Shown here piece by piece: positions 1,794 to 14,586 of a stretch of DNA of 21,208 nt. Numbering within the stretch: the stretch's first letter is position 1; each line of letters opens with the position of its first letter. Made by a program: the position numbers and the translations under genes. This stretch comes from a virus: positions 1 through 21,208 of IMG/VR virus record IMGVR_UViG_3300012936_002987; one strand, 5' to 3'. The notes beneath the pieces are model-generated. The model had not been told where the DNA came from. It saw only the letters and a program-made list of their open reading frames with translations, and ran no database searches.

Positions 1794-2252
1794 ATGAGAA
1801 TCAGAATTAACCATCTTCGAGAAACAGTGAGAAGAATTATTCAAGAATCAGAATCAACTTCAGAGCGAATAGCCAGACAATTCTTTTCTAAGATGCAAGA
1901 GGAATGTGAAGAAAGAGGATTTGATTTCCGACCACATGTTGGACGAGCATCAGGCGCCAAGTGGTATAACGGATGTATTGCGAACACCCCAGAATTAGAA
2001 GGACATACTTTTGTATGTGATGGTGCAAATGAATATGGACTTGAATGTGTCGTATTTTTAAATCCGCAAAATCGGGTTTGCATCATGGTACCAAGCGAAT
2101 ACCCACCTCAGACACGAGAATATATTCTCTGTGAATGCGCAGGTGTATCCGATGCCGCCGCGTTTGCTGCAATGGGCCTGGATGATCCTAAGAGTTTGAA
2201 ATTAGCAAAAGGACCTGATTGTATCGAACTTTTTCTATTGAATCAAAATTAA
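1794..2252 (+). CDS. Small protein with basic amphipathic N-terminal tag, unknown function
   Basis: A 152-aa protein I do not recognise as a family. Residues 1-18 (MRIRINHLRETVRRIIQE) form a basic amphipathic helix of the kind shared with the proteins starting at 8459, 8844, 10050 and 11403. It is followed by Ser and an acidic/Ser-rich linker. I-Q-E|S at 16-19 fits the [LI]-x-E cleavage preference of T4-type prohead proteases (inference). The remainder, about 30-150, looks globular, with several Cys and alternating hydrophobic strands. The start is fixed by AAAGGAG. It has its own promoter-like element and terminator, so it is a single-gene transcription unit between recA and the exonuclease. 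No catalytic motif is apparent. This is the most divergent member of the tag group. Confidence 0.8.
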   Translation: MRIRINHLRETVRRIIQESESTSERIARQFFSKMQEECEERGFDFRPHVGRASGAKWYNGCIANTPELEGHTFVCDGANEYGLECVVFLNPQNRVCIMVPSEYPPQTREYILCECAGVSDAAAFAAMGLDDPKSLKLAKGPDCIELFLLNQN

Positions 2253-2262
2253 TTATTGCCAG

Positions 2263-2292
2263 TTGTAAATTAATAGGGTGCATTAGTACAAT
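2263..2292 (+). promoter_or_regulatory. Promoter of the TTGTAA family, nested in a terminator
   Basis: TTGTAA (2263-2268), 18 bases, TACAAT (2287-2292). It overlaps the hairpin 2272-2308; transcription starting near 2299 would lack the hairpin's left arm and so could read into the exonuclease gene. Confidence 0.4.
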
Positions 2293-2312
2293 ACTAGTGT
2301 ACCCTATTTTCA
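2272..2312 (+). terminator. Rho-independent terminator between the tagged gene and exonuclease
   Basis: A 17-bp stem (2272-2288 with 2292-2308) contains two G-U wobbles, a 3-base loop CAA and a T-rich tail TTTTC. Confidence 0.8.
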
Positions 2313-2333
2313 TTTTCACACACAGGAGTCTTT

Positions 2334-3305
2334 ATGACGACACGAGGTCCCGTACTACTCATCGATGCATACAACATATTCGCAAAGAATTATATTGTCA
2401 ATCCATCACTATCCTCCAATGGCGAACCAATCGGTGGTGCCACTGGCTTTATCAAATCACTTGGTGTTCTTGCCGATACACATCGACCATCCGAAATCAT
2501 TGTATGCTGGGAAGGCGGTGGAGCCAAACGAAGACGTGATCTCCTACCTACTTACAAAGCAGGTCGTAAACCACTTCGACTGAATCGATCAGAACTGTAT
2601 AAGAAAGATCTAGATTCGCCAGAGAACTTTATGTGGCAGGTTGCGTTAGCATGTCGCATGCTCGAGCAACTTCCTATCAAACAAATGTATGTGGATGATT
2701 GTGAGGCCGACGATCTTATTGGTTGGTTCTGTAGGCATCGACTGCGAGAAGATGAGAGATCAATTGTCATTTGTTCAGCAGATCAAGACATGCATCAACT
2801 CCTTCGACCAGGCGTTATTCAATACAATGCAAAGAAGACAATTACTCACGAAGATGTCGTAGCCAAGTATGGTATCACTCCAGAAAATTTTGTAACAGCT
2901 CGTGCATTTATCGGAGATAAATCGGATCGTATCAATGGCATCAAAGGCGTTGGTTTCAAAACTCTTGCACGCAAATTCCCGCAACTTGGTGAAGAGACAT
3001 TTGTTTCAATTGACGACATACTTACAGAATGCAAGTTAAGGAATAGTCAAAAGAAAATGAAATTATACGAATCGATCCTCGCCGAACCCGATACTGCCAA
3101 ACTCAACTGGCGTCTCATGTATCTCGACATCAGTAATCTCAGTGCAGAACATGTAAAGCAGCTGAATTACCGTTATGATAATGCACAGGTAGGCCGGAAT
3201 AAATTTCAGTTTATTAAGACAATGGTACAAGAAGGATTACACGTCCCTGGCCATATCAATGCTGACTTAGTCTGGCTTCGCTTATCATCAATAGAACAGG
3301 AGTAA
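2334..3305 (+). CDS. 5'-3' exonuclease / flap endonuclease (T4 RNase H / T5 D15 family)
   Basis: Metal-dependent nuclease expected to remove RNA primers and 5' flaps from lagging-strand fragments. Visible: LLIDAYNIF with D11 (first metal ligand), an arch/helical region with basic residues around 65-92 (KRRRDLLPTYKAGRK), DDCEADD (121-127) and SADQD (148-152), which carry the acidic cluster, and the helix-hairpin-helix region GDKSDRINGIKGVGFKT (194-210) that binds duplex DNA. All conserved acidic positions I can place are present, so it should be active. Its 323 aa is normal for phage members and there is no fused polymerase. The ATG follows CAGGAG. The stop codon overlaps the ribosome binding site of the helicase gene two bases later, so the two are translationally coupled. 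Confidence 0.92.
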   Translation: MTTRGPVLLIDAYNIFAKNYIVNPSLSSNGEPIGGATGFIKSLGVLADTHRPSEIIVCWEGGGAKRRRDLLPTYKAGRKPLRLNRSELYKKDLDSPENFMWQVALACRMLEQLPIKQMYVDDCEADDLIGWFCRHRLREDERSIVICSADQDMHQLLRPGVIQYNAKKTITHEDVVAKYGITPENFVTARAFIGDKSDRINGIKGVGFKTLARKFPQLGEETFVSIDDILTECKLRNSQKKMKLYESILAEPDTAKLNWRLMYLDISNLSAEHVKQLNYRYDNAQVGRNKFQFIKTMVQEGLHVPGHINADLVWLRLSSIEQE

Positions 3306-3307
3306 AA

Positions 3308-4699
3308 ATGTCAAACCTAGCAATCAAGGAGACTGGTCCCGCGTTGTTTCAACAATATGGGAAAGCTTTCCAAGAAAAGATCTTCCAAGGCCTCGCCATC
3401 GATAAAGATTGGGCACAACAGATGCATGAGGTGATGCGCCCTCATTATTTTGAACTTAAATACCTACAGTACCTGTGTGAAAAGTACTTCGAGTATTTCG
3501 ATAACTATCGATGCTTTCCTACAATGCAGCTTCTTATCCAAATGGTTGGATCTGAATTGACTGGCGAAGGAAGCGACGGCATTCTTAGAAATCAAATAGT
3601 GCAATTCATTCATCGCATGAGAGGCAATCCTCACCCGGAGGATCTACCTTACGTCAAAGACAAGGCGCTTGACTTTTGTAAACGTCAAGCATTCAAGGAT
3701 GCATTGACAACCGCAGTTGAATTAGTGCAAGGCGATAAATTCGAATCAGTCGTAGACTTGATGAAGAAAGCAGTATCTGTTGGCATGCCCCATTCTGTAG
3801 GTCACGACTTCTTCGAAGACATCGAAGCTCGTTTTCAAGAGATTCAAAGAATCACAACACCAACGGGTTTGGATTTCTTAGATGCAAAAGACATTCTTGA
3901 CGGTGGCCTCGGCCGAGGTGAACTCGGAGTTGTCGTTGCGCCTACAGGTTGTGGTAAATCACATTGGCTCGTACAAGTCGGTGCCGCCGCACTTAAGCAA
4001 GGAAGAACCGTAGTTCATTACACATTCGAGTTGAGTGAAGTTTTGGTCGGTAAACGATATGATGCGAATCTTACGAATATATCGGTTAATGATCTTATTG
4101 AAAATAAAGATCGAGTTAAAGATTTTTACGAAGATAACGAAATGGGTAATCTTATCATCAAGTACTACCCCACAAGGACAGCATCCGTGAATACAATTAG
4201 GAATCATCTGGAGAAATTAAAATTTCGAGGACACATTCCTTCTTTGGTCATTATTGACTATGCAGATGTTATGAGGTCTACAAAAGCGTATGAAGCGTTA
4301 AGGCATGAACTTATGTTAATCTATGAAGAGCTACGACAACTAGCAGGTGACTTCAACGTACCTGTTTGGACAGCTTCTCAATCAAACCGTGCAGGTGCCA
4401 ACGCAGATATGGTAGGTCTAGAAAATATGGGTGAGGCTTATGGAAAAGCTCAAGTAAGTGATTTCGTTCTTGGTCTCTCTCGGAAACCCGAAGAAAAAGA
4501 TAAAGGTTATGGAAGGTTATTTGTTGCAAAGAATCGATCCGGTCGTGATGGAATGCAGTTCCATGTGAAGATAGATACCGCAAGATCTAAGTTCGCAAAG
4601 ATGGACATGCAAGAAGTTGCAGACATGGATCCAAAGAATATTATGAAAAAGACTTGGAACCAAGTTCAAAAAGCAAAAAAGGAGTTAGACAATGAGTAA
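3308..4699 (+). CDS. Replicative DNA helicase (DnaB / T4 gp41 type)
   Basis: Hexameric 5'-3' helicase expected to unwind the fork ahead of the phage polymerase. The N-terminal helical region (about 1-165) is followed by a RecA-fold motor: Walker A APTGCGKS (211-218), the catalytic Glu in HYTFELS (E241), Walker B LVIIDY with D317, and the sensor-like Q358 in TASQSNRAG. An arginine-finger candidate lies in the KNRSGRDG stretch near residue 400. Its 463 aa is close to DnaB and gp41. The ATG is five bases after AGGAG, which overlaps the exonuclease stop. The 3' end overlaps the ribonucleotide reductase start by 8 bases. I see no separate primase motif, so a primase would have to lie outside this window or come from the host. 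Confidence 0.92.
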   Translation: MSNLAIKETGPALFQQYGKAFQEKIFQGLAIDKDWAQQMHEVMRPHYFELKYLQYLCEKYFEYFDNYRCFPTMQLLIQMVGSELTGEGSDGILRNQIVQFIHRMRGNPHPEDLPYVKDKALDFCKRQAFKDALTTAVELVQGDKFESVVDLMKKAVSVGMPHSVGHDFFEDIEARFQEIQRITTPTGLDFLDAKDILDGGLGRGELGVVVAPTGCGKSHWLVQVGAAALKQGRTVVHYTFELSEVLVGKRYDANLTNISVNDLIENKDRVKDFYEDNEMGNLIIKYYPTRTASVNTIRNHLEKLKFRGHIPSLVIIDYADVMRSTKAYEALRHELMLIYEELRQLAGDFNVPVWTASQSNRAGANADMVGLENMGEAYGKAQVSDFVLGLSRKPEEKDKGYGRLFVAKNRSGRDGMQFHVKIDTARSKFAKMDMQEVADMDPKNIMKKTWNQVQKAKKELDNE

Positions 4700-7166
4700 G
4701 TACACGTATGACGATGTGTTCGAGGCTTCTCTAGAGTATTTCGGTGGAGATTCTCTAGCAGCCTCTGTGTTTGCAGGAAAATATGCACTGCAAGATGAAG
4801 ATGGGAATTATCTGGAATTAACGCCAGATGACATGCACAAACGATTGGCTTCAGAGTTCGCCAGAATCGAAACCAAATACCCTAATTCAATGGACCGTCA
4901 AGAAATCTATAATTTGTTCAAAGATTTCAAATACGTTGTACCGCAAGGTTCGCCTATGTCAGGCATTGGCAACGAAGCAAAAATCCAGTCTATATCCAAT
5001 TGTTTTGTAATCGAAGCACCCGAAGACTCCTACGGTGGTATTTTGAAAACAGATCAAGAACAAGTCCAGATTATGAAGCGAAGAGGCGGCGTTGGGTTCG
5101 ATATTTCCACAATAAGACCAAAAGGCATGTCTACTTCCAATGCAGCTGGAACCACCGATGGTATCGAAGTTTTCATGGATAGATTTTCAAACTCATGTCG
5201 AGAGGTTGCGCAAGGCGGCCGCCGTGGCGCATTGATGCTTTCAGTATCTGTTCACCACCCTCAAGTGATGGAGTTTATCAAAATTAAAAGAGACCTAACA
5301 AAAGTGACAGGTGCAAACATATCTGTGCGAGTTTCCGATGAGTTCATGAATGCTGTAAAGAATAACGAACCATACGAACAAAGATGGCCTGTTGATTCAG
5401 CTAATCCTGAGATCAAGAATACTGCTGATGCTATCGAAGTTTGGAATGAGCTGATTGAAGGTGCGCATGCATCAGCTGAACCAGGTGTTCTTTTCTGGGA
5501 TACAGCTACACGAATGACACCGTCGGATGCGTATGCAGATCAGGGCTTTGGTTCTGTTTCAACAAACCCGTGTGGAGAGATTATTCTTTCTCCATACGAT
5601 TCATGTCGCCTTATGTTAATGAATCTTACATCTTTCGTAGAGAACGCATGGACTGATAAAGCTTCTTTTGATTGGGGCAAGTTCCGTATTATGTCTAGAA
5701 AGGCACAGCGATTAATGGACGACATGATCGACATTGAAATCGAACAGATCGATAAGATCCTTACAAAAATTGACAATGATCCAGAGACCGATGAGACTAA
5801 ATACTACGAACGCAATTTGTGGCACACGATAAGACAAGTGGCCGTCAATGGTAGAAGAACAGGATTAGGCGTCACAGGCCTTGGAGATGCGATTGCGATG
5901 CTAGGTCAAACCTATGGTGATAACGATTCAATCGAAACAGTTGAAGAGATCTATAAGTGGTTGTCACTTGCTTCCTACGAAGAGTCCATCCAACTTGCAA
6001 AGGAACGTGGAGCATTCCCAATCTTCGATGCATCAAAAGAAGAAGGGCATCCATTCATCAGTCGTGTTGTCAACGAACTAGTGGATCCTGTCCAAGCTGA
6101 CTATAGACAATACGGCCGACGCAACATTGCGAATACAACAACAGCGCCTGCTGGTTCAGTTTCTTGTCTGACCCAAACTACGTCAGGAATCGAACCTGCT
6201 TTCATGCTATATTATAAACGTCGTAAGAAAGTGCAAAATGGCGAAGAAGTGATGTTCGTAGATGATCTCGGTGACGAATGGACAGAGTTCAACGTGTACC
6301 ATCATAAGTTCAAAGAATGGATGGCTATGAATCACGTTTCCGACGAGGAAGTAGATACAGCTATCGAACACTCACCATATCATGGCGGTACTGCAAATGA
6401 AATCGACTGGCGCGCCAAAGTGAAACTTCAATCCGTTGCACAAAAGTGGATCTGTCATGCTATTTCGAACACAACGAACCTCCCCGCAGATATTGATGTT
6501 GAAACAGTGAAAGACATTTACATGCTTGGGTGGGAACTTGGCTGTAAAGGCGTAACTGTATATCGAGATGGTTCTCGTTCTGGAGTTCTCGTAGCGGCCG
6601 AAGAAAATAAAGAAGAAAAGTTTTCCGAAAGACACGCACCAAAAAGACCAGAAACATTAGCTTGCGACATATTTCATACCTCTGTAAAAGGCCAAAAATG
6701 GGTCGTGCTAGTCGGTCTTATGAATGGCAAGCCCTATGAAGTAATTGGTGGCGAAGCCGAGATGATCGAACTTCCAAGGAGAATAAAGAATGGCACCCTC
6801 ACTAAGAGAGCGTTCAAAACGACTAATTCAAAATATGATCTTTCTATGGGTGACGGCGATGATAAGCTTAACATTAAGGATGTCGTCAGCGTCTTTGCCA
6901 ATGCAAATTTTGCTGGCTACACTCGAACTATTAGTTTGGCTCTTCGTCATCGCGTGCCTGTCCAGTATCTTGTAGAACAGATGCAAAAAGACAAAGAGGC
7001 TGATCTGTTTTCGTTCTCTAAGGTGATTGCACGGTGTTTGAAGAATTATATCGTGGATGGTACAGAAGTTGACAAGACATGTACATCATGTGGAGCGGAA
7101 GGATCCCTTGTGTATCAAGAGGGATGTGTCACGTGTAAATCGTGTGGACATGGAAAATGCGGATAA
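4692..7166 (+). CDS. nrdJ: Adenosylcobalamin-dependent (class II) ribonucleotide reductase
   Basis: Reduces ribonucleotides to deoxyribonucleotides using vitamin B12 to generate the radical, so it works with or without oxygen and in a single polypeptide. Visible: active-site Cys in SISNCFV (C104), NPCGEI (292-297) with radical Cys C294 and E296, and the partner redox Cys C305 in DSCRLMLMNL. A TSCPD-type domain spans about 655-790. A C-terminal Cys cluster (C797, C800, C812, C815, C818, C823) matches the zinc/redox tail of long NrdJ enzymes. Its 824 aa is normal for long class II enzymes. The start is set by AAGGAG; the 8-base overlap with the helicase suggests coupled expression. A host able to take up or make B12 is implied. 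A terminator follows. Confidence 0.95.
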   Translation: MSKYTYDDVFEASLEYFGGDSLAASVFAGKYALQDEDGNYLELTPDDMHKRLASEFARIETKYPNSMDRQEIYNLFKDFKYVVPQGSPMSGIGNEAKIQSISNCFVIEAPEDSYGGILKTDQEQVQIMKRRGGVGFDISTIRPKGMSTSNAAGTTDGIEVFMDRFSNSCREVAQGGRRGALMLSVSVHHPQVMEFIKIKRDLTKVTGANISVRVSDEFMNAVKNNEPYEQRWPVDSANPEIKNTADAIEVWNELIEGAHASAEPGVLFWDTATRMTPSDAYADQGFGSVSTNPCGEIILSPYDSCRLMLMNLTSFVENAWTDKASFDWGKFRIMSRKAQRLMDDMIDIEIEQIDKILTKIDNDPETDETKYYERNLWHTIRQVAVNGRRTGLGVTGLGDAIAMLGQTYGDNDSIETVEEIYKWLSLASYEESIQLAKERGAFPIFDASKEEGHPFISRVVNELVDPVQADYRQYGRRNIANTTTAPAGSVSCLTQTTSGIEPAFMLYYKRRKKVQNGEEVMFVDDLGDEWTEFNVYHHKFKEWMAMNHVSDEEVDTAIEHSPYHGGTANEIDWRAKVKLQSVAQKWICHAISNTTNLPADIDVETVKDIYMLGWELGCKGVTVYRDGSRSGVLVAAEENKEEKFSERHAPKRPETLACDIFHTSVKGQKWVVLVGLMNGKPYEVIGGEAEMIELPRRIKNGTLTKRAFKTTNSKYDLSMGDGDDKLNIKDVVSVFANANFAGYTRTISLALRHRVPVQYLVEQMQKDKEADLFSFSKVIARCLKNYIVDGTEVDKTCTSCGAEGSLVYQEGCVTCKSCGHGKCG

Positions 7167-7195
7167 ACTGAAAAATAAATTATATTTTTACTCCT

Positions 7196-7225
7196 AACGG
7201 CGGCTCTTGCGAGTCGTCGTTTTTT
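7196..7225 (+). terminator. Rho-independent terminator after nrdJ
   Basis: An 11-bp stem with wobbles (AACGGCGGCTC at 7196-7206 with GAGTCGTCGTT at 7211-7221), loop TTGC, followed by a run of T. Confidence 0.85.
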
Positions 7226-7252
7226 GTAAAATCTACATAAATTGAGTATAGT
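7224..7252 (+). promoter_or_regulatory. Promoter of the TTGTAA family before clpP
   Basis: TTGTAA (7224-7229), 17 bases, TATAGT (7247-7252), with GAG just before the -10. The -35 overlaps the end of the nrdJ terminator. A 10-bp palindrome GTACTAGTAC (7251-7260) sits at the expected start point and could be an operator. Confidence 0.6.
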
Positions 7253-7297
7253 ACTAGTACAACACTACTACACAATAACTAACCAAAAGGAGCATAC

Positions 7298-7930
7298 ATG
7301 CATTGGACAACAAAAGTATCACCACTTATCAAGGACATCGAATTGAAACACTCTCCCGTTATGATTCGAGTAAACGATTTCACCGAGGAAGCTGCAGCTG
7401 ATTTTGCTGCAAAGATGGGAGTAGCTCAAAACACTGGACAACCTGTCATTCCCGTGATTATCGACTCGTATGGTGGTCAAGTTTATTCTTTGATGTCCAT
7501 GATTGCTGCAATTAAATCATCGAAAGTGCCTGTCGCAACTATCGTGGAAGGTAAGGCAATGTCATGCGGTGTTATTCTGGCTTCGTGTGGTGCGAAAGGA
7601 ATGAGATATATCTCTGAAGATGCAACACTAATGATCCACGATGTAAGTTCAGGAGCATTTGGCAAGAACTCCGAGATCCAAGCGAGTGCAGATGAAACAC
7701 GAAGATTGAATGATAAGATCTACGAGATTCTCGCACAAAACACAGGTAAACCGGCCAAGTGGTTTCACAAGAAGATCAACAAACGTGGTCGTGCTGATTG
7801 GTTTGTAGAACCATATCGAGCAATCGAGATTGGCATTAGCGACAAGATTGGAGTTCCTACCCTAGACATCAATGTGTCTGTTGATATAAAATTCGTAGAA
7901 CCCGATACAAAACAAGCACCTTCTGTATAA
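7298..7930 (+). CDS. clpP: ClpP-like serine protease
   Basis: Member of the ClpP/crotonase fold. Visible: oxyanion strand DSYGG (56-60), catalytic Ser89 in GKAMSCG, His114 in LMIHDVSSG, and Asp167 in RADWFV, spaced as in ClpP; so the full triad is present. Its 210 aa matches ClpP, with a normal handle region (about 120-160) and no fused capsid or portal domain. In many phages ClpP-like proteins serve as prohead maturation proteases, but here there are no head genes nearby and it sits behind nrdJ. With ClpS in the same window (14245), a role with a host ClpA/ClpX unfoldase is a reasonable alternative. The ATG is set by AAAGGAG. It has its own promoter; the Dps-like gene follows after 30 bases. 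Confidence 0.88.
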   Translation: MHWTTKVSPLIKDIELKHSPVMIRVNDFTEEAAADFAAKMGVAQNTGQPVIPVIIDSYGGQVYSLMSMIAAIKSSKVPVATIVEGKAMSCGVILASCGAKGMRYISEDATLMIHDVSSGAFGKNSEIQASADETRRLNDKIYEILAQNTGKPAKWFHKKINKRGRADWFVEPYRAIEIGISDKIGVPTLDINVSVDIKFVEPDTKQAPSV

Positions 7931-7960
7931 TTATGAAGGAGTTTATTTTGGAGAATGTCT

Positions 7961-8770
7961 ATGGAACACATATTCCGACAATGGATCGGCATGCATCGTG
8001 CGATCATCGCATGGTTTCATGCTGCACATCATGTCACAAAAGGAACCGGTTTCGGTGGTGATCACGTTAATTTATATGGCGAGATCTATACCACTTTAGA
8101 CGAAGATCTAGACGGCATCGTAGAAAAAGGAATAGGATTGACTGGTGATGAAACACTGGCCGATCCTGTTTCATCATTATCAATGGCGGCAGGTCTTCTT
8201 GCACAACAGCCTGCATCAGCGAATCAGGATGCAGAGACTATTGCGTGCAACGCCTTTGAGGTTATTAAATACTATGTCAAAGCGATCGAAGGTATTTACT
8301 CACAATTCGAAGCTTGTGGAATGTCTCTTGGGCTAGATGATCTGCTACAAGGCCTTGCGAATCAATACGAAACTTATGTTTATCTTCTACAGCAAAGAAG
8401 TAGAACGGTATCCTTGAATAAATCACCTATAGTCATGACTGTTATGGAGAACAAAAAGATGAAATTAACAAAACGACAATTAAAGAAAATCATTCGTGAA
8501 GAGTATTCACGTTTGAAAAGAAGAGGCCTTATTAAAGAATCAAACCAGAACAATCGCATGGCTGATTTGATTTTGGACGCTGTGGATGAAGGTATCGAAT
8601 TTGACGACGCGGTGTTTATGGCATTTGAAGGACAAGAGCTGCCTTTGCCTGACATACGAGCTTTGAGAGAAATACTGCAAGTCGTTGAAGAAAAGTGGGG
8701 CCGAAGAGTTACAATGTACGACATTGGTGGTGCAATCGACGATTTCCTCGCTGATTACCACACTTATTAA
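7961..8770 (+). CDS. Dps/ferritin-like domain joined in frame to a tagged domain
   Basis: Residues about 5-148 resemble Dps, the DNA-protecting mini-ferritin: a helix with H23, H35 twelve residues on, then D51 and E55 in LDEDLDGIVEKG, close to the spacing of the Dps ferroxidase ligands, and a final helix around LANQYETYVYLLQQR. A normal Dps would end here. Instead the frame stays open through a linker (SLNKSPIVMTVMENKK) into the tag MKLTKRQLKKIIREE (167-181) and a further acidic domain of about 85 aa. Either this is a true fusion or the Dps stop codon was lost; an internal start at 8459 is possible. I chose ATG 7961 because GGAG lies 7 bases upstream; ATG 7955 is only one base from it. Confidence 0.7.
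   Translation: MEHIFRQWIGMHRAIIAWFHAAHHVTKGTGFGGDHVNLYGEIYTTLDEDLDGIVEKGIGLTGDETLADPVSSLSMAAGLLAQQPASANQDAETIACNAFEVIKYYVKAIEGIYSQFEACGMSLGLDDLLQGLANQYETYVYLLQQRSRTVSLNKSPIVMTVMENKKMKLTKRQLKKIIREEYSRLKRRGLIKESNQNNRMADLILDAVDEGIEFDDAVFMAFEGQELPLPDIRALREILQVVEEKWGRRVTMYDIGGAIDDFLADYHTY
8459..8770 (+). CDS. Possible separate tagged protein from an internal start in the Dps-like frame
   Basis: ATG 8459 is preceded by GGAG at 8446-8449, nine bases away, and would give a 103-aa protein. Its first 15 residues, MKLTKRQLKKIIREE, differ from those of the protein at 10050 in only two positions (4 and 10). The other tagged proteins all carry the tag at their extreme N-terminus, which argues that this start is used, alone or as well as the fusion. 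Residues 25-27 (I-K-E) followed by S fit an [LI]-x-E cleavage site at the same position as in the 10050 protein. The rest, about 33-103, is acidic and predicted helical, with MADLILDAVDEGIEFDDA; no family recognised. Confidence 0.5.
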   Translation: MKLTKRQLKKIIREEYSRLKRRGLIKESNQNNRMADLILDAVDEGIEFDDAVFMAFEGQELPLPDIRALREILQVVEEKWGRRVTMYDIGGAIDDFLADYHTY

Positions 8771-8802
8771 GTGGACACATAATGAAGATAGCAGAGCCAA
8801 GC

Positions 8803-8832
8803 TTGAGAAAAATTATGTACTAATAGGATAAT
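8803..8832 (+). promoter_or_regulatory. Promoter before the tagged protein at 8844
   Basis: TTGAGA (8803-8808), 18 bases, GATAAT (8827-8832), in the 73-base gap after the Dps-like gene. The leader would be very short. Confidence 0.45.
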
Positions 8833-8843
8833 AGGAGTCCAAA

Positions 8844-9152
8844 ATGAATAAAAGACAATTACGAAAGACATTAAACCGTGTATTAACAGAAGCGGCGACA
8901 GGGCCACGATTAACTAGATTATTGACAAGGCTTAAAGCAGATGTTGATCAAGGAAAAGCCGTCAGAAACGAATGGTGTGAATTTTGGGTTAATTTTTGTG
9001 ACAATTGGTCAGATGAAGAAGGTATCCCAGAAGATTCATCTGACTGTTATCACTTGATCATGGAAGATCTTTTGAGCGCAGCTGACGCTTGGAAAAGAGA
9101 ACAAGAGTTTGCAGGATCCCTTTGGGATGTAGCTCAATGTCTAGGCATGTGA
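8844..9152 (+). CDS. Small tagged protein, unknown function
   Basis: A 102-aa protein. Residues 1-15 (MNKRQLRKTLNRVLT) are a shortened form of the basic amphipathic tag, containing the same K-R-Q-L-R-K core, followed by L-T-E|A at 14-17, which fits an [LI]-x-E cleavage site. A second basic helix follows (RLTRLLTRLKAD), then an acidic, Trp- and Cys-containing helical region (EWCEFWVNFCDNWSDEE) that I do not recognise. It starts after AGGAG with its own promoter and ends 4 bases before the amidase start, so the two are probably co-transcribed. Confidence 0.78.
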   Translation: MNKRQLRKTLNRVLTEAATGPRLTRLLTRLKADVDQGKAVRNEWCEFWVNFCDNWSDEEGIPEDSSDCYHLIMEDLLSAADAWKREQEFAGSLWDVAQCLGM

Positions 9153-9156
9153 TTAA

Positions 9157-10053
9157 ATGGCGGTAGATAAAGATTTCTATAACGAAGCAAGCGCATCGAA
9201 ATTAGGATGGGAACCCTCTTGGTTCATTCCCGGCCACAAACTGTTCGATCGTAAACTACAAAATGCGATTCGAGCGTTTCAACGTGAGTATCGATTGACT
9301 GCTGACGGAATGTGCGGACCTACAACTTATCGTAGGCTTGTCGCTAAGATGGAAGCAGAACATCCTTTCGTAGGACCCGAATGGAACCCAAATGATTCAG
9401 ATGTTCTTTGGTATAATGACCAACCCATTCGTATCGATTGGCCTGCGGACAAAGTACACACGTTCAAAGATGATGGTTTCCCGTATGCTATATCGAAAGG
9501 CCTCACACCGTATTCTAAGAAACGCACCATACGTTCTTTTGTGAACCATTGGGATGTGTGTTTGAATAGTGCATCATGTGCGAAGGTTCTTAAGAAACGA
9601 AACGTATCTGTTCACTTCTGTATTGACAATGATGGAACAATCATTCAGCTTCATGACATCAACGATGCTTGTTGGCATGCAGGAAATAGGAATGTCAATC
9701 ATTCGTCTGTAGGCGTAGAGATAAGTAATGCATACTATCCAAAGTATCAATCTTGGTATAAACGAAATGTGGGCAAAGAACGGCCAATTATGGAAGGTGC
9801 GTTGGCACAGAACAAAGAGCTCGATCCTTTCACTTGGTTCTACCCCGAACAAATCGAAGCTCTCAAAGCTTTGTGGAAAGCTATTCACGAAGGTTGTGGT
9901 GTTCCTCTCGAAGCACCATCTGAACAATGGGCATACGATAAGGTCGCAGCTTCAGGAAAGTTCAAAGGTTTTATGAATCATTTCCACTGCTCAAAGAAGA
10001 AGATCGACTGTGGCGGCCTAGATATACAGGAACTCTTAGGAGAAATCAAATGA
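9157..10053 (+). CDS. N-acetylmuramoyl-L-alanine amidase with N-terminal peptidoglycan-binding domain (endolysin type)
   Basis: Cell-wall hydrolase that cuts the amide bond between muramic acid and the stem peptide. Residues about 12-65 form a PG_binding_1 repeat (LQNAIRAFQREYRLTADGMCGP). The amidase_2 domain spans about 120-298: zinc ligand H131 in NHWDVC, the strand VHFCIDNDGTIIQLHDI (152-168), H174, VGVEISN (185-191), and a second zinc region NHFHCSKKKIDC (274-285) with His275/277 and C285. Key ligands are present. There is no signal peptide, so it would need a holin; the coiled-coil/membrane protein at 12566 is a weak candidate. The start lacks a strong ribosome binding site and is probably coupled to the upstream stop. 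The 3' end overlaps the next gene by 4 bases (ATGA). Confidence 0.88.
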   Translation: MAVDKDFYNEASASKLGWEPSWFIPGHKLFDRKLQNAIRAFQREYRLTADGMCGPTTYRRLVAKMEAEHPFVGPEWNPNDSDVLWYNDQPIRIDWPADKVHTFKDDGFPYAISKGLTPYSKKRTIRSFVNHWDVCLNSASCAKVLKKRNVSVHFCIDNDGTIIQLHDINDACWHAGNRNVNHSSVGVEISNAYYPKYQSWYKRNVGKERPIMEGALAQNKELDPFTWFYPEQIEALKALWKAIHEGCGVPLEAPSEQWAYDKVAASGKFKGFMNHFHCSKKKIDCGGLDIQELLGEIK

Positions 10054-10346
10054 AATTATCAAAAAGACAATTAAAAAGAATTATCAGAGAAGAATATGCT
10101 AAGTTGAATCAAAATAATTTACTTAGTGAAAACGTCTGTTACGACGAAGATGCTATCTGGGATTGTATCGAAGATGATGGTGAAGCGTACGCACCTCGGC
10201 ATGTTGCTGAAGAGTGGATGGATGGCCTTGCACCTCGAGATATGAGAAATATGACAATGGATACGAGAGTGACGATTATGCATGATGACCAAGGACAAGA
10301 ATGCGAATGTGTCAAAATAACAGATAGATCTTTCCGAAGGTTCTAG
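10050..10346 (+). CDS. Small tagged protein, unknown function
   Basis: A 98-aa protein that begins with the archetypal tag MKLSKRQLKRIIREEYAKL, followed by a polar linker and L-S-E|N at 25-28, a fitting [LI]-x-E site. The mature part (28-98) is acidic with an early Cys and Trp (VCYDEDAIWDCIEDD) and ends in a strand-rich segment with CECVKITDRSFRRF; no family recognised. The ATG overlaps the amidase stop by 4 bases and AGGAG lies within the amidase codons, so translation is coupled to the endolysin-type gene. Confidence 0.8.
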   Translation: MKLSKRQLKRIIREEYAKLNQNNLLSENVCYDEDAIWDCIEDDGEAYAPRHVAEEWMDGLAPRDMRNMTMDTRVTIMHDDQGQECECVKITDRSFRRF

Positions 10347-10377
10347 ATAACAAACTAATCAAACAATACATTCATAG

Positions 10378-10383
10378 TATAAT
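10378..10383 (+). promoter_or_regulatory. Putative -10 box before the adenine methyltransferase
   Basis: A perfect TATAAT lies in the 59-base gap, 22 bases before the start codon. No convincing -35 at 16-18 bases. Confidence 0.4.
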
Positions 10384-10405
10384 GTCTCCATAGCAGGAGA
10401 CTTAT

Positions 10406-11392
10406 ATGATTATTGATGTACCTGTATCTTTAGATACAAAGAAAATGGAAACGCCAAAGAAGCCACCGTTTAAGTATGCAGGCTCTAAAGCCCGAATGCT
10501 CAAGAAATATGAGTTATCGGGCTTTTTAGTGAATGAACCAAAAATGTTTGTCGACATGTTCGCAGGTTCTACCCAAGTTGCATACTGGATTAGACAACTA
10601 TATCCAGACCTGCCGATTGTGATTAACGATTTAAACGACGAATTAAACCAGTTGTACCGCGTAATGATGAATCACACAGTCGAGTATCAAAAGTGGGGAC
10701 GTAAGTTTCTACAACCATACCTTGAAATCACGCCTCCGCCGAAACCTCAGATCTCTCCGGAGCGTAAAGAATACTATTATGAGCTTCGGCAAAAGTATTG
10801 GGATCGTGATTTCCAAAATGAGGTTGAAGAAAGTGCATTGTTGATGTTTATGATGCGCATCAATTTCAATGGGTTCTGGGGTCAATCTAAAAAGTATCCC
10901 GGAAGATACGGAACATCTGCCGGTAATATGTGGTGGAAGAAACCGTGGTTCGATAAACTCGAAGTACAAGAACTAGATTTCATCGAGTTTTTGAAATCGT
11001 GTGTAATTACGAAAGAATCGTATGAAAATACAGCAAAATGGGTCGATAAAGGTGTATGGATGTACGCAGATCCACCTTACCGTCTATCAGCTGAAAATTA
11101 TCGAGCCGCTGGCGAGTTTGATGATACGTGCCAAGAGCAGCTATGCGACTTTATGAAAGACGTGCACCGACTTGGTGGCTACGGAGCTCTTTCAAACCGA
11201 GAACACCACGATGGAGGAAAGATTGGATGGAAGATGGCGCCGGCGGGTCGTCAATGGACGAATGGTGGATGGTTTGGCGATAAATTCGATGATAATTGGA
11301 CCATGCACATGTTTATGGGACATAAGTATACATCAGGGCGCAAAGATAAAGAAGGTTGCTTAGCGACGGAGATTTTAATTAAAAATTACTGA
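10406..11392 (+). CDS. dam: D12-class N6-adenine DNA methyltransferase (Dam family)
   Basis: Transfers methyl from S-adenosylmethionine to adenine N6, probably in a short palindrome such as GATC, though the target cannot be read from sequence. Visible: N-terminal FKYAGSKARM (22-31), the D12-class AdoMet-binding motif; VDMFAGSTQ (49-57, motif I); catalytic ADPPY (221-225, motif IV); and LSNRE (262-266). Its 328 aa is somewhat longer than E. coli Dam (278 aa). No restriction endonuclease is adjacent, so it is an orphan, for host-restriction evasion or marking replicated DNA. GATC is common in the window, so the phage has not purged the site. The start is set by CAGGAG. The tagged gene at 11403 begins 10 bases after the stop. 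Confidence 0.92.
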   Translation: MIIDVPVSLDTKKMETPKKPPFKYAGSKARMLKKYELSGFLVNEPKMFVDMFAGSTQVAYWIRQLYPDLPIVINDLNDELNQLYRVMMNHTVEYQKWGRKFLQPYLEITPPPKPQISPERKEYYYELRQKYWDRDFQNEVEESALLMFMMRINFNGFWGQSKKYPGRYGTSAGNMWWKKPWFDKLEVQELDFIEFLKSCVITKESYENTAKWVDKGVWMYADPPYRLSAENYRAAGEFDDTCQEQLCDFMKDVHRLGGYGALSNREHHDGGKIGWKMAPAGRQWTNGGWFGDKFDDNWTMHMFMGHKYTSGRKDKEGCLATEILIKNY

Positions 11393-11402
11393 GGTATATA
11401 CG

Positions 11403-11726
11403 ATGAGAATTAAAGAAAGCCAATTAAGACGAATAATTCGTAAAACAATTAAAGAAAGCTTGGATGAAATAACCCCAGAACAGCAAGATTTGCTAGACAA
11501 AGAAGTCAATATACTTGGATCGTATCAAAGGCGACTTGCACAGAACCCTAAGTCATACAGCGACAAAGAATTTTTGATGAATATTTATCACATTCTACAA
11601 GCATTGGTTGAAGGACAGTATACAGTGGATGACTTCCAAAGCTGGGTAGGTAAAAGATGGCCCAATTATACGATCCCAATGTATCAATATTTATTGGATA
11701 CAGTTTTTGAAGAAAAACCTTATTAG
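11403..11726 (+). CDS. Small tagged protein, unknown function
   Basis: A 107-aa protein starting MRIKESQLRRIIRKTIKE, the tag with a longer basic stretch, then S-L-D-E. I-K-E|S at 16-19 is a fitting [LI]-x-E site, at the same position as in the 1794 protein. The remainder is helical (ITPEQQDLLDKEVNILGSYQ, then NIYHILQALVEGQYTVDDFQ) with a Trp-rich segment near residue 80; no family recognised. GAGG eight bases upstream sets the start, and it follows the methyltransferase after 10 bases, so they are co-transcribed. Confidence 0.78.
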   Translation: MRIKESQLRRIIRKTIKESLDEITPEQQDLLDKEVNILGSYQRRLAQNPKSYSDKEFLMNIYHILQALVEGQYTVDDFQSWVGKRWPNYTIPMYQYLLDTVFEEKPY

Positions 11727-12565: not shown

Positions 12566-12892
12566 ATGACCGGTGACAACAATGGATGGGGCGAATACTC
12601 CCGATTAGTATTAAAAGAATTAGAAACTTTGGCAAAAGGAATAGAGGGATTGAAAGTCCAAATTGGAGATCTTAAATCAGAGATCGCAGAACTAAAAGCC
12701 AAAGAAGACAAAGTGAAAGAGCTATCTGCATGGAAAGATAGAATTGACGAAGTTGCTTCACCAACGCAACTTAAAGAGATGCAAGACATGGTGAAGAAAC
12801 ATGAGCTATTCAAAACAAAGGCCATCACGATGTTTGCAGTTGTGCAAATTATGATGGCAGGATTAATGGGAATTTTGAAGTTCTTTCTATAG
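12566..12892 (+). CDS. Coiled-coil protein with C-terminal membrane anchor
   Basis: A 108-aa protein. Residues about 13-75 are a heptad-rich charged coiled coil (LKVQIGDLKSEIAELKAKED), and about 84-108 form one hydrophobic segment ending at the C-terminus (MFAVVQIMMAGLMGILKFF). This architecture resembles phage XhlA-like proteins and some holin or spanin-related membrane proteins, but no diagnostic motif is present and the lysis link is inference from the amidase at 9157. I chose ATG 12566, with CGGAG 7 bases away, over an upstream GTG at 12530 that has no ribosome binding site. Confidence 0.65.
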   Translation: MTGDNNGWGEYSRLVLKELETLAKGIEGLKVQIGDLKSEIAELKAKEDKVKELSAWKDRIDEVASPTQLKEMQDMVKKHELFKTKAITMFAVVQIMMAGLMGILKFFL

Positions 12893-14014: not shown

Positions 14015-14267
14015 AAGAGAAAGACAAGAATTAGAACACAAAATCGCATCTGTCGAAGAAACATTGCAACTTCTGAAACATCAGGAAAGTAATCTTCTAG
14101 AAGCTATGCGTCTACATCCTTACGACCATCACGATAAAAAAGTCAATCAATGGGTGAGAGAAATATTTATAGGATGCGATTATATCGTAAGACTAGAAGA
14201 ATCATTGAAATTATTAAAACAATCACTACCACCCCGGAGGAAACGTGGCGGAAAGAAAAAAGACTGA
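14007..14267 (+). CDS. Small coiled-coil protein, unknown function
   Basis: An 86-aa, highly charged, helical protein: residues 1-35 form a coiled coil (LEHKIASVEETLQLLKHQES), followed by a His-rich turn (HPYDHHDKK), a second helix (about 60-74), and a strongly basic tail PPRRKRGGKKKD that could bind nucleic acid. GGAGG lies 7 bases before ATG 14007. It overlaps the upstream Tudor-like gene by 8 bases and clpS by 23 bases; the basic tail is encoded by the same bases as the clpS start. Confidence 0.75.
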   Translation: MNKRERQELEHKIASVEETLQLLKHQESNLLEAMRLHPYDHHDKKVNQWVREIFIGCDYIVRLEESLKLLKQSLPPRRKRGGKKKD

Positions 14268-14586
14268 TAAGGATGGAGGATCAGGCGTAGATCTTCTCGA
14301 CAAAGAGAAAGCAAAGAATAAGGTGAAGCCTCCAAAGAAGTACAAAGTAGTATATCATAACGATGATTATACCCCTATGGAACTCGTAGTGATCTCGTTA
14401 GTTGCGATCTTTCATCGATCAAACGTAGATGCTTTTAATATTATGATGCATGTCCACGAGAAGGGCAAAGGCATCGCACAAGGCGGGCTGTCCAAAGAGA
14501 TAGCCGAAACAAAAACAAACCGTGTGGTACAATGGTTTAGAGAACAAGGTTACCCACTACTCGCAACATTCGAACCGGAGGAATAA
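14245..14586 (+). CDS. clpS: ClpS-like adaptor for N-degron proteolysis
   Basis: ClpS delivers proteins with destabilising N-terminal residues to ClpAP. Visible: a disordered charged N-terminal extension (1-28, the part that in ClpS enters the ClpA pore), then PPKKYKVVYHNDDYTPME (29-46), HNDD at 38-41 giving the N/D residues that hold the substrate amino group, hydrophobic-pocket M45, H71 in VHEKG matching E. coli H66, and IAETK (86-90) near the C-terminal strand ending LLATFEPEE. All binding-pocket residues I can place are kept, so substrate binding should work. Its 113 aa is close to E. coli ClpS (106). GTG 14245 is the start, with GGAGG four bases away. A phage ClpP-like protease is encoded at 7298. 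Confidence 0.93.
   Translation: MAERKKTDKDGGSGVDLLDKEKAKNKVKPPKKYKVVYHNDDYTPMELVVISLVAIFHRSNVDAFNIMMHVHEKGKGIAQGGLSKEIAETKTNRVVQWFREQGYPLLATFEPEE

Follow-up and report, generated by a model that had tools for sequence, protein, structure and literature searches.

A candidate capsid-targeting leader on unrelated small proteins of marine T4-type jumbo phages

The internal proteins of phage T4 carry leaders of 10-19 residues that target them to the core, and gp21 cleaves after L/I-X-E; with D in place of the E before the cut, targeting in T4 persists and processing is blocked (PMC9026906). Among T-even phages, the internal proteins are highly diverse and the capsid-targeting sequence (CTS) alone is conserved (PMC3012670; PMC12373910); T4 Ip1, Ip2 and Ip3 act against three different type IV restriction enzymes, each blocking one (PMC12373910). 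The window studied here, the whole 21,208-nt stretch of DNA that was analysed, comes from uncultivated marine T4-type jumbo phages and contains five small proteins with a shared leader. Judged from its sequence, this tag is probably a portable capsid-targeting leader of a marine T4-type jumbo phage clade that would recruit proteins to the prohead core, be removed by a protease and deliver its cargoes as internal proteins.

The first-pass annotation had described five proteins that open with variants of one helix. Leader-type N-termini are present at all five starts that it named (1794, 8459, 8844, 10050 and 11403), although the order of its tag list did not match the order of its coordinates. 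The correct pairs, all on the plus strand, are 1794 with MRIRINHLRETVRRIIQE, 8459 with MKLTKRQLKKIIREEYSRLKRRGLIKE, 8844 with MNKRQLRKTLNRVLTE, 10050 with MKLSKRQLKRIIREEYAKLNQNNLLSE and 11403 with MRIKESQLRRIIRKTIKE. Leader 1 (1794..1847) is a divergent short form with a profile E of 0.37 and a predicted cut after E18 (I-Q-E↓S); a scan of 2.9 million IMG/VR contigs found, at the sensitivity used, no relatives of its cargo of 134 aa (1848..2252). Leader 2 (8459..8539), with a predicted cut after E27 (I-K-E↓S), precedes 76 aa (8540..8770) that had no relatives among the fetched contigs, and leader 3 (8844..8891), predicted to be cut after E16 (L-T-E↓A), precedes 86 aa (8892..9152). Leader 4 (10050..10130; predicted cut after E27, L-S-E↓N) heads a 71-aa cargo (10131..10346) with one relative, 84% identical, on contig L004/L025. 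Leader 5 (11403..11456; predicted cut after E18, I-K-E↓S, with an alternative site, L-D-E, at E22) heads an 89-aa cargo (11457..11726) with one full-length relative, 86% identical. In the window scan, the leaders at 1794 and 8844 reached a profile E of only ~0.4, and their membership therefore leans on graded intermediates in relatives. No T4-type head genes were found within the 21 kb window, which is itself a fragment.

The leader is a basic helix, 14-27 residues long, with [L/I/V]-x-E as its usual end. It is amphipathic, with a mean helical moment of 0.64; shuffling its residues lowers the value to 0.35, and untagged N-termini have 0.28. The net charge of the five window leaders is +4 to +5. 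At E<1e-3, a profile of the tag matched 179 of the 2,040 N-termini of the window and ten relatives. Among control segments, 1,516 internal and 1,516 C-terminal, it matched 7 and 0, respectively, and several of the seven represent a second, internal tag or a start placed wrongly. The reversed tag pattern had no matches across 20 contigs. Relatives of 200-289 kb each contained 21-38 tagged proteins. Such a profile search had been proposed in the first-pass annotation, and it returned what was anticipated there: dozens of carriers in a genome, their C-terminal parts unrelated.

The diversity of these C-terminal parts behind the common leader, also noted in that annotation, held across the larger set: 210 tagged proteins formed 163 cargo clusters, of which 138 had a single member, and within single genomes 38 of 38, 33 of 33 and 28 of 29 cargoes were distinct. 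The shortest cargoes have about 20 aa and the longest about 590, and the proteins behind one leader type include Dps-like, SOD-like and unknown ones. The first 15 residues of the five window proteins are similar, as would be expected of paralogues with a single fold that includes the helix; the number of clusters, the range of lengths and the mixture of proteins behind one leader type argue against this explanation, to which we give next to no weight. A Pfam match better than 1e-4 was obtained for 2 of 147 tagged proteins; among 100 untagged proteins of matched size, roughly one in four had such a match. When the tagged set was scanned with PADLOC and PHROGs, the matches were almost all weak and scattered, and no cargo could therefore be assigned to defence or counter-defence.

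Leaders and cargoes are exchanged in both directions. At fixed loci, near-identical phages carry one tag with differing cargoes and one cargo with differing tags; the leader of window 8844 also heads an unrelated cargo in L009 (8439-8657), and one cargo lies behind three different leaders (L003 7683, L009 10535, L005 8778). The cargo locus is hypervariable among close relatives. This two-way exchange and the unrelated cargoes strongly support the modular-leader logic proposed at first pass. Tagged genes lie in tandem arrays, with 12-26 adjacent pairs per genome when 1-5 are expected. Synonymous codon identity among the tags of one genome was 0.57-0.71, while codon usage predicts 0.37-0.50, indicating that part of the tag similarity reflects recent DNA copying beyond protein-level selection. 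Pure protein-level selection, with saturated tag codons, was rejected on this basis. The arrays and the excess codon identity would both fit a recombination hot spot or a translation-start cassette, that is, a duplicated 5' module that aids expression and has no role in targeting. However, the amino acids of the tag are conserved across diverged genomes and in phage LR756508 though the DNA letters vary, the length of the leader changes while its end motif is kept, and some tags lie inside or at the C-terminus of Dps-like proteins, where a start would be of little use. We therefore consider a start cassette or hot spot very improbable.

The leader at 8459 is one such case. It is not the start of an open reading frame but is internal to 7955-8770, in frame and downstream of a Dps/ferritin-like domain (7955..8458, plus strand), and GGAG precedes its ATG. 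A low-confidence model of 7955-8458 has four helices and a short crossing helix, a topology that fits Dps/ferritin; every listed match in the PDB was a Dps or ferritin, but the matches were weak (E 0.03-0.4), and the segment matched phrog_858 with an E of about 7e-4. The tag of the Dps-like protein is internal in the window, L004, L005 and L009, N-terminal in L065 and C-terminal in L003, with just seven residues beyond it; the protein of L006 has no tag. Across relatives, the Dps-like domain is thus paired with other leaders and cargoes, with none, or with an N-terminal leader. The first-pass annotation did not mention the Dps fusions, the cargo-swapping loci or the [L/I]-x-E end of the tag.

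This end is the best clue to the mechanism of the tag. Conservation of the tag stops abruptly at the glutamate of [L/I]-x-E: in IIxEE[KR] leaders E22, preceded by L-[LI]-x, shows 81% conservation and the background level is reached by residues 23-24, and IIxEE[YF] leaders have the same abrupt end at E27. The motif [LIVM]xE with P1 at 18-30 was present in 153 of 212 tagged proteins, compared to 62 +/- 6 (maximum 79 in 500) after shuffling, which controls for composition in an L- and E-rich helix that inflates part of the count. LR756508 (484 kb), from a separate lineage, has 14 diverged leaders, 12 with the terminal motif, and 6 of 2000 shuffles reached 12. A downstream [LIVM]xE was found in 98 of 110 leaders with E15 and in 21 of 50 without it (Fisher p=1e-9); in the latter, residue 15 is mostly A, S or T, generating I-x-E↓A/S/T at 14↓15. 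In about a quarter of the tagged proteins no [L/I]-x-E follows downstream, and the helix-internal I-x-E at residue 14 has to take its place, which is a looser test. Finally, the SOD-like orthologues of relatives G013 and G006 differ in their leaders, which are 23 and 29 aa long, and the strongly homologous part of the two proteins begins directly behind LKE↓S and IKE↓A.

These data bear on whether the leader is removed. An uncleaved localisation or interaction helix, directed to DNA, membrane, polymerase or a replication site and with the terminal E simply ending the helix, would account for the basic amphipathic character, since this moment and charge could suit nucleic acid or membrane. In addition, the low-confidence model of cargo 5 gives a helix alone, with the N-terminal helix 5-19 standing apart; the cargo structure models are too weak for reading folds. 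A general helix, however, requires no end motif, covariation or homology restart. Here, [L/I]-x-E closes leaders of several lengths, residue 15 covaries with the downstream motif, homology in the SOD pair resumes directly behind the E, and the same leader type occurs on head-module genes. An uncleaved helix is accordingly unlikely. The residue behind the predicted cut also speaks to a degradation signal read by the phage ClpP and ClpS of the window (7298-7930 and 14245-14586), both Pfam-confirmed in relative G013 and with ClpP adjoining the Dps-tag gene. ClpS targets have an N-terminal L, F, W or Y. Behind the predicted cut, S, A, Q or M dominate and 6 of 82 proteins have Y or W, and we rejected a ClpS/ClpP degron because of this mismatch. 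Moreover, 30 or more tags would doom about a tenth of the genome's genes, making this role barely credible.

The capsid-targeting reading can be compared with the head genes of tag-bearing phages. An S77 prohead protease (Peptidase_S77) was found in all 16 tag-bearing contigs of at least 136 kb and a gp23 capsid protein in all 11 tested, and counterparts of gp20, gp21, gp22-like and gp23 are present in relatives. S77 and gp23 are common among large marine phages, and their presence alone is therefore weak evidence. In the five genomes inspected, the capsid protein has a propeptide site, VLRE↓A, VLRE↓Q, LLRE↓A or VLKE↓A, which looks to lie at the position matching T4 gp23 FLTE↓A. In five genomes, a tag-like leader ending EIL-x-E is present on the first or second gene after the protease, and in G002 the capsid gene is followed directly by four tagged genes. 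The gp21-type motif at the tag end and the gp21/gp23 head in the large contigs tested strongly support the analogy with T4 capsid targeting drawn at first pass.

In the proposed mechanism, the leader helix would bind the prohead scaffolding core, so that tagged proteins would be incorporated into the growing head. A gp21-type (S77) phage protease would then cut behind the terminal E, and the mature cargo would be freed inside the head and remain with the DNA. Head targeting by the leader is likely, as is cleavage at [L/I]-x-E, and we infer that tagged proteins are present in virions. Less certainly, many cargoes would exit with the DNA at infection and act in early host takeover, counter-defence or DNA protection (Dps-like, SOD-like), which would explain rapid cargo turnover; ejection of cargoes as effectors has about an even chance of being correct. 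By analogy with T4 Ip1, Ip2 and Ip3, many tagged proteins may be counter-defence proteins. We suggest more tentatively, and at slightly less than even chance, an expandable form of delivery, in which one head-packaging label unrelated to that of T4 has spread by recombination onto 20-40 proteins per genome at N-terminal, internal and C-terminal positions, loading a fast-changing injected set; a Dps-like protein would belong to it, and probably a superoxide dismutase as well.

A literature search with the tag letters returned no paper, and a nucleotide search of the window against known phages gave no matches. In 50,697 phage records, tblastn of the tag detected LR756508 only. Bacterial and archaeal genomes contained seven tag stretches, and two of the contigs, when checked, resembled phage sequence that had been binned into MAGs. 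Microcystis phage Mel-JY01 has a related head module, yet no convincing tag was found in it. If the model is correct, the tag would be a second head-addressing signal for loading cargo into phage heads, unrelated in sequence to that of T4, and the pre-loaded protein set would far exceed that of T4. A 22-residue profile would then flag hundreds of head-borne phage proteins in any metagenome, a very large sequence-marked reservoir of candidate injected counter-defence proteins.

The same gp23 type (48-49% identical) occurs in Flavobacterium phage immuto and the uncultured phage LR756508, which have weaker forms of the leader; immuto is cultured but has a handful of leaders only, with weak ones on gp080, gp094 and gp114. 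SPN3US and phiKZ are giant phages too, and their heads contain dozens of internal proteins, some of which a prohead protease cleaves (PMC10052503). SPN3US differs in its motif, A-x-E, in its known substrates, which are nine head proteins only, and in its mostly long propeptides, and the parts of that account available to us do not mention a shared leader (PMC10052503). The closest parallel is T4. As here, the CTS of IPI, IPII and IPIII is a short N-terminal leader on unrelated small proteins with a gp21 site at its end, and the internal-protein cargo locus is a hot spot. T4 core proteins also share an N-terminal L/I-x-E↓A (gp67 LFAE↓A, gp22 LIAE↓A), although gp67 matched the tag profile only very weakly (E 0.51). 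The ipI, ipII and ipIII leaders (MKTYQEFIAE↓A) had no sequence similarity to the tag profile (E above 100), and we therefore class the tag as CTS-like in its working but outside the CTS sequence family. It is longer than the T4 CTS, basic and amphipathic, and it can be internal or C-terminal; an internal tag behind a Dps-like domain is an arrangement foreign to T4. Finally, a large genome has 21-38 carriers, whereas T4 has 3 and the number reported across related phages is at least 10; the leader described here serves about ten times more proteins than the T4 CTS.

No sequenced phage closely matched the 21 kb viral fragment at the nucleotide level; its nearest relatives are marine IMG/VR contigs, among them the 46.5 kb G013, whose exonuclease gene is 99% identical to that of the window. 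Translation revealed RecA-like, FEN-like exonuclease, DnaB-like, ribonucleotide reductase, ClpP, amidase, Dam-like, ThyX, glycosylase, ClpS and DnaE-like genes, and Pfam searches in G013 confirmed ClpP, ClpS, the amidase and the Dam-type methylase. Both the ClpP-like protease (7298-7930), which also scores in PHROGs as a phage head maturation protease, and the ClpS adaptor (14245-14586) are phage-borne. The five basic amphipathic leaders described in the first-pass annotation (starting at 1794, 8459, 8844, 10050 and 11403) are present in the window, while the order in which it listed the tags does not follow the coordinates.

Each of two stringent DNA patterns for the tag matched 37-38 IMG/VR stretches. 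Most of these were on contigs of up to 293 kb, and a contig often had several; the reversed pattern had no matches in 20 contigs. We retrieved ten relatives in full or almost in full, called their genes with a simple script and ran a 24-residue profile built from 158 leaders against all N-termini. At E<1e-3 (Z=1000, seed genomes included), the profile matched 179 of 2,040 N-termini, compared to 7 of 1,516 internal segments and none of 1,516 C-terminal ones. This search, proposed earlier as a check, yielded 21-38 tagged genes with unrelated cargoes per 200-289 kb contig, all contigs being uncultivated and possibly incomplete. Tagged genes were strongly clustered in these large contigs; G011, for instance, had 26 adjacent pairs against 5.1 expected and a maximum of 12 in 1000 shuffles. 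Some tagged proteins (G006 180207-180644, G001 52332-53003 and G002 172158-172835) have a second tag mid-protein and appear polyprotein-like.

Compared behind residue 29, 210 tagged proteins fell into 163 clusters, bearing out the claim that the C-terminal parts are unrelated; within a single genome, almost every cargo formed its own cluster. Only 2 of 147 tagged proteins had Pfam matches at E<1e-4, one to DUF5824 and one to a superoxide dismutase C-domain, whereas a size-matched set of 100 untagged proteins from the same genomes gave matches to 27 families. A ribosome modulation factor match among the tagged proteins lay at exactly 1e-4. The mature parts of the proteins starting at 1794, 8459 and 8844 had no homologues across the fetched contigs, and a scan of all IMG/VR found nothing for the first. 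The superoxide dismutase-like proteins of G013 (28372-29049) and G006 (248012-248710; PF02777, E 1e-20 and 3e-17, respectively) carry different tag-like leaders, and their homology begins directly after [L/I]KE. Tagged mini-proteins of 41-42 aa (G001 88431-88556, G006 211174-211302) share the conserved end PFG[TS]GM.QA...LIGHT.

Across the ClpP-to-ThyX region of relatives with similar core genes, tagged genes with differing cargoes occupy the Dps-amidase, amidase-Dam and Dam-ThyX gaps. The window protein at 8844 and that at 8439 in contig L009 have MNKRQLRKTL.RV..E in common and no other similarity; conversely, one cargo, up to 75% identical over its body, follows three different leaders (L003 7683, L009 10535 and L005 8778). 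The amidase-Dam locus of L006 holds a single 1229-aa ORF (7580-11269) that starts MIYSGHNIARNLLSE/SDS, in which a Pfam search found no convincing domain. In both G010 and G011, a homologue of window 12566-12892 occurs just downstream of the capsid gene.

In the window, ORF 7955-8770 joins a Dps-like domain in frame to the second leader. We assign the domain to Dps because of a weak PHROG match, a low-confidence four-helix model that includes the short crossing helix, and hits in the PDB, all of them Dps or ferritin at poor E-values. The domain reads into other leaders and cargoes in L004, L005 and L009, ends with a leader plus seven residues in L003, and stops without one in L006; the Dps-like protein of G011 (L065) has its leader at the N-terminus. 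GGAG precedes the start at 8459, and the fusion may be a single translated chain or may re-initiate there.

Leaders were aligned from the initiating M, and the end motif was not used for alignment. In ..IIxEE[KR] leaders, L19, L/I20 and E22 (81%) are conserved, and conservation then falls to 0.39 bits at residue 23 and 0.04 at 24. In ..IIxEE[YF] leaders, L24, I/L25 and E27 (81%) are conserved before the drop. In a third type, A, S or T often replaces E15 and conservation drops past residue 16. The end thus shifts with leader type (14-18, 22 or 27 residues), typically remaining [L/I/V]-x-E. The motif was counted in 153 tagged proteins against 62 +/- 6 in shuffled controls, a second, downstream motif was much rarer in leaders without E15 (p=1e-9), and S and A were enriched after the predicted cut. 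The pattern fits all five window leaders and 12 of 14 diverged leaders in LR756508, a 484 kb uncultured phage. The sequences show that the leader is portable, that its cargoes are swapped and that its end is set by a motif.

The gp21 protease of T4 cleaves after L/I-X-E (PMC9026906). A T4-like S77 prohead protease is encoded by 16 of 16 tag-bearing contigs of at least 136 kb, a count restricted to tag-bearing contigs, and the major capsid protein gp23 by all 11 tested. Gene order in the head module is portal, protease, small genes, acidic core, gp23. Inspected capsid proteins carry QVLRE/A, QLLRE/A, QVLKE/A or QVLRE/Q at a position that looks equivalent to FLTE/A of T4. In five genomes, a tag-like leader ending EIL[VST]E opens a gene that lies a short distance behind the protease, and four tagged genes directly follow the capsid gene in G002. 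By eye, a small basic bS21-like protein sits within the module immediately before the core gene (G011 33596-33820, G001 175728-175955, G006 42282-42503, G002 128337-128555); the head module of the Microcystis phage Mel-JY01 includes an annotated S21. NHDW01000006.1 (305,838 bp; S77 protease and 7 tags) and PBIO01000025.1 (101,404 bp), filed in Methylococcaceae and Halobacteriovorax MAGs, are jumbo-phage-like contigs.

In T4, the leader first directs proteins to the core and is then removed by cutting (PMC9026906). Because motif, protease, gene context and this precedent converge, we infer that the tagged proteins are targeted to the head and cleaved. T4 precedent and cargo turnover suggest that the cargoes could then be ejected and act in counter-defence. 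The T4 ipII and ipIII genes adjoin the lysozyme gene, and the third and fourth window leaders flank the amidase gene, a likeness that may be coincidental. T4 leaders have no sequence similarity to the tag, so the system would work like the T4 capsid-targeting sequence while lying outside its sequence family, and may represent either an independent invention or divergence beyond recognition.
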